Below, one piece after another: positions 41,303 through 41,990 of a stretch of DNA of 64,000 bases. How positions within the stretch are numbered: the stretch's first letter is position 1; the number at the start of each line of letters is the position of its first letter. The stretch spans positions 751,501-815,500 of the forward strand of contig NZ_CP072348.1 of assembly GCF_018127925.1 (NCBI RefSeq), read 5' to 3'. The DNA is from Prevotella melaninogenica (GTDB lineage Bacteria; Bacteroidota; Bacteroidia; Bacteroidales; Bacteroidaceae). The notes under the pieces are model-generated. The model was not told the DNA's origin, made no database searches, and was given only the letters and a program-made list of their open reading frames with translations. The position numbers were made by a program, and so were the translations under genes.

Positions 41303-41333
41303 TTGCCCATTCCATTTAATCTTATTACCTTTG
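41303..41333 (+). promoter_or_regulatory. Promoter of leader copy 3
   Basis: TACCTTTG -7 box (41326-41333) with TTG (41303-41305) 20 nt upstream. The downstream sequence cgcccgttgagtgagaatta is identical to copy 1. Confidence 0.85.
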
Positions 41334-41364
41334 CGCCCGTTGAGTGAGAATTAACTTATTAATA

Positions 41365-41739
41365 ATGATGTTACAAACAACTAAATTCAATCAAGCTAAC
41401 GTTTGCGCCTTATATAATAAAGGTGTAAATGCACTTGCTATTGCGTTGGAATCTTTAACATCTAAATACGAGAAAAAGATAGTAAATTATTTGGTAGTTC
41501 CAAATATTTGTATACTCTCTCTCTCTCTCTCTCTCTCTCTCTCTCTCTCTCTCTCTCTCTCTAGTAGAGCAGACGTAAATTACACATTTTTTTCTTCTCG
41601 CGTACGCGCGCGCGAAGCGTGCCGCAAACCCTGTAAACAAAGGACTTCTAGGAGTTTCCTTTGTTCTTTTTTTGTGTCCGTACCTAAACCGAATTATAGA
41701 GAAATTAAGCACGAAATAACAACTATTTTTAATCAATAA
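41365..41739 (+). CDS. Phase-variable leader ORF, copy 3, (CT)24
   Basis: 124 codons starting MMLQTTKFNQANVC. It shares 50 residues nearly identically with copy 1, then a (CT)24 tract read as Leu-Ser, then SSRADVNYTFF and on to a stop at 41739. With 24 repeats the frame crosses the terminator-like hairpin (about 41635-41673). Copies 1 and 2 have other repeat numbers and stop at the tract. I infer this copy is ON. It ends 44 nt before the small protein at 41784; no other promoter is seen in the gap. Confidence 0.65.
   Translation: MMLQTTKFNQANVCALYNKGVNALAIALESLTSKYEKKIVNYLVVPNICILSLSLSLSLSLSLSLSSRADVNYTFFSSRVRAREACRKPCKQRTSRSFLCSFFVSVPKPNYREIKHEITTIFNQ
41515..41562. repeat. Dinucleotide microsatellite (CT)24
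   Basis: 48-nt uninterrupted CT run inside leader ORF copy 3. Confidence 0.98.
41635..41673 (+). terminator. Attenuator-like hairpin of leader copy 3
   Basis: Stem aacaaagga / tcctttgtt (41636-41644 with 41657-41665) followed by a T-run (41666-41672). The stem lies inside the ON frame of the leader ORF. Confidence 0.7.
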
Positions 41740-41783
41740 AACAATGGATACATTAACTCTGTATCCTTTAACTTTAAAACAAA

Positions 41784-41990
41784 ATGATAGCAACAGAAAG
41801 AAAGATTTATCTAAAGCCTCAATGCAACATCATTTGCACGGAGACAGAAGCCCTGTTAGGCACTGCCAGTGGTAATGCTGGAAAGATTCAGTCAGGAACG
41901 GTAACGGGCGATGCAAAGCGTAACTTCTTTAACGAAGAAGAAGACGAAGACCAGGAAGGATTTTCTTGGGACAATACAGAAAAGGACTAA
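41784..41990 (+). CDS. Small cysteine-containing, acidic-tailed protein, copy 3
   Basis: 68 residues starting MIATERKIYLKPQC. It has the Tyr-Leu-x-Pro-Gln-Cys pattern of its two relatives and an acidic tail with NNEEEDEDQ-type stretches (EEDEDQEGFSWDNTEKD). It precedes the fimbrillin-like gene by 24 nt. Unknown function. Confidence 0.65.
   Translation: MIATERKIYLKPQCNIICTETEALLGTASGNAGKIQSGTVTGDAKRNFFNEEEDEDQEGFSWDNTEKD

Follow-up and report, generated by a model that had tools for sequence, protein, structure and literature searches.

The window, by which we mean the whole stretch of 64,000 nt that was analysed, carries a leader region (locus L213) that is likely to be a transcription attenuator switched by slippage in a dinucleotide repeat, and judged by likeness it is one of about 59 such leaders in its genome. 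Transcription would begin at an upstream promoter, and a ribosome would translate the leader into the dinucleotide tract. At two of the three tract lengths it would meet a stop codon at or just past the tract, about 45–70 nt before a terminator hairpin, and the hairpin would then form and RNA polymerase would halt (OFF). At the third length the ribosome would trail RNA polymerase over the hairpin, so that the hairpin could not form, and the cassette behind it, consisting of a small protein, a predicted surface lipoprotein and often an HU-HIG protein, would be transcribed (ON). Replication slippage would alter the repeat number (n) and so switch each cassette independently. Termination, read-through and switching in a living population are what we infer from the sequence; slippage-controlled read-through had been proposed for this locus in an earlier note, and the comparison of copies supports the proposal well.

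All elements of the locus named in that note were found again, at the same positions, when the sequence was re-read, and all are on the plus strand. The predicted promoter (41303..41333) consists of a TTG (-33 type) at 41303–41305 and TACCTTTG (-7 type) at 41326–41333, with 20 bp spacing, a TTG/TAnnTTTG pair that we take to be the Bacteroidota promoter type. The leader ORF (41365..41739) begins with an ATG at 41365, a second in-frame start candidate being the GTG at 41344, and runs into a (CT)24 tract at 41515–41562, representing the putative switch. A predicted stem-loop (41488..41506) lies immediately 5' of the tract. The frames past the tract stop at +2 (TAG, 41562–41564), +16 (TAA, 41576–41578) and +177 nt, and frame computation places the n = 24 leader in the +177 frame, which passes through the hairpin (+74 to +103 after the tract) and would correspond to the ON state. 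A GC-rich segment, TCGCGTACGCGCGCGCGAAGCGTGCCGCA (41598..41626), was recognised by the alignment of segments, and its TACGCGCG core is present in most copies aligned. The terminator-like stem-loop (41636..41673) is formed by AACAAAGGA at 41636–41644 and TCCTTTGTT at 41657–41665, followed by seven T at 41667–41673, and the next gene starts with an ATG at 41784. TAnnTTTG is absent between the hairpin and this ATG, in line with the note's remark that no second promoter is apparent.

Two more copies are found within the window, both on the minus strand and both OFF. L196 has a (CT)37 tract (4166..4239), a leader ATG at 4389, a stop at +16 and a hairpin at about 4058–4096, while the corresponding elements of L202 are a (CT)23 tract (12153..12198), an ATG at 12378, a stop at +2 and a hairpin at about 12049–12079. 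A BLAST search of the window's own genome, 3.36 Mb in 2 contigs, returned 41 matches, the short ones of which looked like a hairpin-only repeat, an idea that was dropped when they proved on reading to be leaders of a second class, with a (CA)n tract and the same plan as the (CT)n leaders. A CA pattern (six and a half AC units with no C after) occurs at 39 places in the genome, and all 39 lie inside such leaders. The 58 tract leaders fetched comprise 40 of the CA class and 18 of the CT class. Matches to a covariance model built on the region after the tract number 59 in this genome, and one of those listed revealed a further CA leader (L316, OFF), which together with the 18 (CT)n and 40 (CA)n leaders gives a total of at least 59.

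The frame layout is maintained in nearly all of this set. In 56/58 leaders a single frame runs across the hairpin while the other two end short of it, so that the repeat number determines whether the leader frame ends well before the terminator or reaches it. The exceptions are L211, where the hairpin was not recognised by the frame analysis, and L190 (G000 C2:1590500-1596000), in which none of the three frames gets as far as the hairpin, and which would be locked OFF. An in-frame ATG reaching the tract is absent in seven of the 58 leaders (6 CA, 1 CT), some of which may use an in-frame GTG. Among 137 unique segments from 12 genomes (excluding L211, L311, L330 and duplicate segments, and with the hairpin fixed at +70 to +104 for some of the relatives' segments), one crossing frame was found in 126, compared to 45.5% of dinucleotide shuffles, and a strict layout (one crossing frame and two stops within 34 nt) in 117, compared to 10.6%; the copies are related, so the effective sample is smaller and these statistics overstate independence. 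After clustering of 142 segments, the strict layout gave P = 1.4e-4 with 13 clusters, 2.1e-3 with 10, 0.06 with 4 and 0.2 with 2, and the one-crossing-frame measure gave 0.02, 0.11, 0.25 and 0.7, respectively. Stops within the crossing frame were assessed by column permutation (500 permutations, majority-frame copies only), a test that ignores relatedness. They occur in 1/38 CA copies of this genome (permuted mean 3.5; 11/500 as low), 0/9 CT copies (mean 3.2; 2/500) and 0/21 copies of the related genome G122 (mean 2.7; 0/500), while the result for G076, another relative, is not clear (0/15; mean 1.0; 69/500).

Between an OFF stop and the hairpin there is a median of 54 nt, and 263 of the 268 distances measured are 30 nt or longer. 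In E. coli, according to the portion of the source available, stop-to-terminator distances over 27–30 nt allow full termination, and a single inserted base that moved the stop from 28 to 5 bp reduced termination from about 90% to under 10% (PMC4824070). By analogy, the OFF-stop distances of the leaders would exceed the range in which an E. coli ribosome spoils a terminator. The same portion describes terminators less than 100 bp into a coding region as escaping ribosomes in E. coli (PMC4824070); in the 58 leaders, the usual ATG and the hairpin are separated by about 170 nt or more.

A premature intrinsic terminator between leader and operon is predicted at 57/58 loci, which have a stem and a T-rich tail. 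For six of the 12 predicted stem pairs there is some sequence in which both partners are replaced, and one pair is A-U in 25/39 and G-C in 12/39 sequences, numbers that count alignment cells and not events. The T-run is kept in most of the 39 aligned segments. A second, 18-bp hairpin is present at 28 loci of this genome, about 230–261 nt past the tract (e.g., L155 and L156). In the five shown it is very stable (-27 to -29 kcal/mol) and without a T-run, and the open frame passes this hairpin as well in 27/28 loci. The stem preceding the tract has a mean folding energy of -9.2 (z -4.3) in the CT class, -7.1 (z -2.2) in the CA class and -8.8 (z -2.5) in G122, with group mean z values of -1.9 to -4.3 over 120 copies, and is missing in L305. 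Reading of the alignment showed that in many G122 copies it is made of unrelated letters, which suggests that the stem matters; it may make the polymerase pause, allowing the ribosome to stay close behind.

Upstream of the tract, TAnnTTTG is found at a distance of 100–240 nt in all 58 leaders, and as TTG-N17-23-TAnnTTTG within 260 nt in 46/57. A second promoter past the hairpin was considered and rejected, as a scan of 57 loci showed none that was convincing: TAnnTTTG follows the hairpin at two (L161 and L198) against 6.0 expected from shuffles, and the motif with a -33 TTG at 0/57 against 0.6 expected. The dN/dS values of the leaders are 0.58–0.77 (0.69–0.98 past the tract), with little codon-position bias. 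Values below 1 could possibly reflect a weak constraint on the peptide, but a functional leader peptide is not favoured because that bias is slight, and since the frame layout and the stem are kept, what is conserved would chiefly be the act of translation across the hairpin.

The CU-rich tract itself could be the termination signal, if it loads Rho when untranslated in the OFF frames and the hairpin is secondary. This Rho-dependent polarity is unlikely, for in all three frames translation would extend to the end of the tract, CA tracts fill the same role without being pyrimidine tracts, and the stem with its T-run is present in both classes. It derives its appeal from E. coli, where, in the part of the source available, (TC)15 is an efficient rut site (PMC5021804), a likeness by analogy. 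Given this resemblance, Rho may still help in the CT class, where the CU tract may load it when left untranslated, as an addition to the slippage-switched attenuator.

The cassette of L213 begins with a 68-aa small protein carrying a Y..P.C motif (41784..41990, plus strand), followed by a 541-aa predicted surface lipoprotein (42015..43640, plus strand), and ends with an HU-HIG DNA-binding protein (43972..44436, plus strand; PF18291). On the minus strand, a 483-aa protein without a Pfam match lies behind L196 (2507..3958), and behind L202 are a small protein (11571..11780, a gene pick), a 526-aa protein predicted from sequence features to be a surface lipoprotein (9944..11524) and an HU-HIG protein with a Pfam match (9260..9718). 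Small proteins occur at 54/58 loci of this genome; 56 picks passed a loose pattern, two of which (L196 and L211) were judged spurious. Their Y..P.C core is invariant in the 23 aligned, none of the 23 scanned has a Pfam match, and neither does that of L213. A protein of at least 480 aa is encoded behind all 58 leaders, and a cysteine after a signal-like start is kept in at least 90% of these main proteins. An HU-HIG paralogue ends the cassette in at least 38/58 loci, and all 38 picks scanned, which had been preselected by pattern, match PF18291. The main gene of the window locus had been called fimbrillin-like in the earlier note, and this holds as a distant likeness by family, while the protein itself has no Pfam match. 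The label is a loose one, because only 3/58 main proteins match fimbrillin Mfa_like_1 (PF13149) at E 0.001 (the window's two are not among these) and one has BspA-type repeats, and 'surface' is likewise a prediction. A profile of the main protein had no matches in PDB up to E 1, and its AlphaFold model, built from 4 sequences, has a mean pLDDT of 37. Tandem arrays with a period of 18–26 bp (mostly 22–23 bp) are seen at 43820–43906 of the window and behind other main genes. They occur within 900 nt after the main gene at 40/58 loci, in some cases inside or after the next gene, and their palindromic core differs from locus to locus in many.

The crossing frame might instead serve to bring ribosomes to the start of the small gene, by translational coupling or fusion, with the hairpin incidental. 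Two leaders (L186 and L212) are indeed fused in frame with the small gene, and at L160, L175, L176, L187, L195, L204 and L206 the leader stop is only -4 to 10 nt from its start (L196 and L211 also have such gaps, but relative to the spurious picks). Coupling could be at work at these loci. As a general explanation it is highly improbable: most gaps are 25–135 nt (44 nt at the window locus), which is too long for ordinary translational coupling, nearly every leader of this genome has a frame that crosses the hairpin, and the hairpin covaries and has a T-run. The earlier note had also raised the possibility that translation shields the RNA; it would then protect against decay and leave termination unaffected. 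Sequence cannot separate the two processes; a T-run after the stem, conserved as described above, suits termination, and decay as the controlled step is regarded as very doubtful.

The state of each leader was called from the frame set at the start of the tract. The crossing frame, and with it the ON state of the preferred attenuator model, is found in only 5/58 leaders (L156, L174, L185, L197 and L213) where 19.3 would be expected (P = 1.1e-5 with loci taken as independent). L174 lacks an ATG, and among ATG-bearing leaders 4/51 are ON (P = 1.9e-5). The OFF skew is strong only in this genome and weaker in G122 (7/36 ON, P 0.05) and G076 (2/15 ON, P 0.08, after setting aside 4/19 copies with an N before the tract). 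Leaving out L330 of G076, which has an N inside the tract and was wrongly scored OFF, gives 2/14. Tract lengths in this genome range from 13 to 77 nt, and of the 25 pairs whose flanks are 95% or more identical, only three share the same length.

Judged by sequence matches, the family is present in at least ten other Prevotella genomes and in a second genus. The CA module was found by BLAST in 11/200 genomes of the genus (own included), and an exact 20-base pattern of the CT type in Prevotella vespertina and P. jejuni. The covariance model has matches in every one of the 12 genomes chosen for it; G122 has 40 and G076 has 27 (36 and 19 of which were analysed), and a family-wide draw with stricter filters returned 6/151 genomes (own included) and 2/30 genera. 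A scan of viral contigs with one pattern gave no stretches, which proves little about carriage by phages or mobile elements. The CT-tract copy in G214, which belongs to another genus, has quite different letters, and its frames again stop at +10, +15 and +155. The layout is kept less strictly in the most diverged copies: in G242, from the same genus as G214, two frames run past the hairpin in 3/4 copies read, and two early stops, each no more than 34 nt after the tract, are seen in 0/2 copies of G017, 0/2 of G075 and 1/3 of G168. The one-crossing-frame test was also failed by 6/36 G122 and 4/15 G076 copies.

In the close relative G026, 9/11 matches were fetched and the ortholog of the window leader (L351) could be identified. 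The gene upstream shows 96% identity, and the leader itself 95% up to the tract, which is (CT)4 compared to (CT)24 in L213 and of OFF length. The cassette behind L351 differs: a 326-aa part of its main protein has 33–40% identity to its five best hits in the window's own genome. The cassette most like that of the window among the nine G026 stretches lies elsewhere (85% over 1471 nt), also behind a (CT)4 leader. The G026 assembly is a draft of about 30 contigs, and its assembly could have produced short tracts of equal length, although a 31-nt AC tract is also present in G026; it is at face value that tract length and cassette would both have changed at one leader. A different cassette behind an orthologous leader points to possible cassette exchange at the leader. 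That the leaders are shared repeats spreading cassettes by recombination, the tract being a by-product and the frames without regulatory role, would fit this exchange but is extremely improbable, as the frame layout is kept in many diverged copies and depletion of the ON length to 5/58 in this genome (the skew being weaker in G122 and G076) is unexpected of a tract without a role.

The earlier note knew of no described case of the slippage-switched attenuator, but this design has a precedent. Repeat-in-leader attenuation was demonstrated experimentally for pil1 of S. gallolyticus, and the same was reported for pil3, in the accessible portion of Danne et al. 2014 (PMC3894217). As in the Prevotella leaders, that portion places repeats in a leader ORF, followed by a stem-loop that terminates transcription prematurely ahead of a surface operon; a frame change extends the peptide so that it ends within the hairpin or beyond it, and the ON state is that of a minority (PMC3894217). 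The differences, as far as that portion of the source goes, are a pentanucleotide repeat (GCAGA) at two pilus loci of a Firmicute, compared to dinucleotides at about 59 loci in a member of the Bacteroidota with other genes, and two of three repeat lengths being ON in pil (21 and 23, out-of-frame, with 22 OFF), compared to one of three in Prevotella. Since repeat, phylum, loci and genes differ, the two systems probably arose independently.

Other known systems share parts of the design. Many surface operons of Bacteroides are switched independently by invertible promoters, through DNA inversion, whereas slippage would do so in the Prevotella leaders. The pyrBI leader senses pyrimidines through polymerase pausing; in Prevotella the setting is written in the repeat number, and the downstream genes encode predicted surface proteins. 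In contingency genes of the oipA type the repeat is part of the protein-coding gene and its effect is on translation, unlike the Prevotella repeat, which is in a separate leader and would act on transcription. The leader frame overlaps the predicted terminator as in E. coli pyrBI, where, in the source portions available, the leader frame runs across an intrinsic terminator and a close ribosome blocks the hairpin (PMC5021804, PMC4824070), and dinucleotide slippage that shifts the reading frame is likewise described, in the portion seen, for the CT-repeat contingency genes of Helicobacter pylori such as oipA (PMC10564699). No report of repeat-controlled leaders in Prevotella or Bacteroidota was found among the entries listed, judged by title and opening lines of the abstract, in the literature searched, which did not extend to most subscription papers or any bioRxiv preprints. 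As far as these searches reach, the phylum, the dinucleotide layout with two stops and one open frame, the genome-wide scale and the OFF skew are new, while the kind of system is known.

We give about an even chance to the broader view that some 59 cassettes form an antigen repertoire, each under its own slippage-set attenuator and around one in twelve ON, which would provide combinatorial antigenic variation by a mechanism separate from the streptococcal one, with leaders as points of cassette exchange and the ON state rare by selection. If true, a common human oral genus gains a contingency system in which dozens of surface proteins take part, the expressed set can be predicted directly from sequence by reading n leader by leader, and two phyla make use of slippage combined with translation-controlled termination. 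The leaders would also offer about 59 natural replicates, differing in n, for examining how far before a terminator the ribosome must stop.

An Rfam scan of the window at gathering scores flagged only a cobalamin riboswitch (37845–38035), and the gene after it presumably encodes a protein resembling a TonB receptor, an arrangement that we take to be ordinary.
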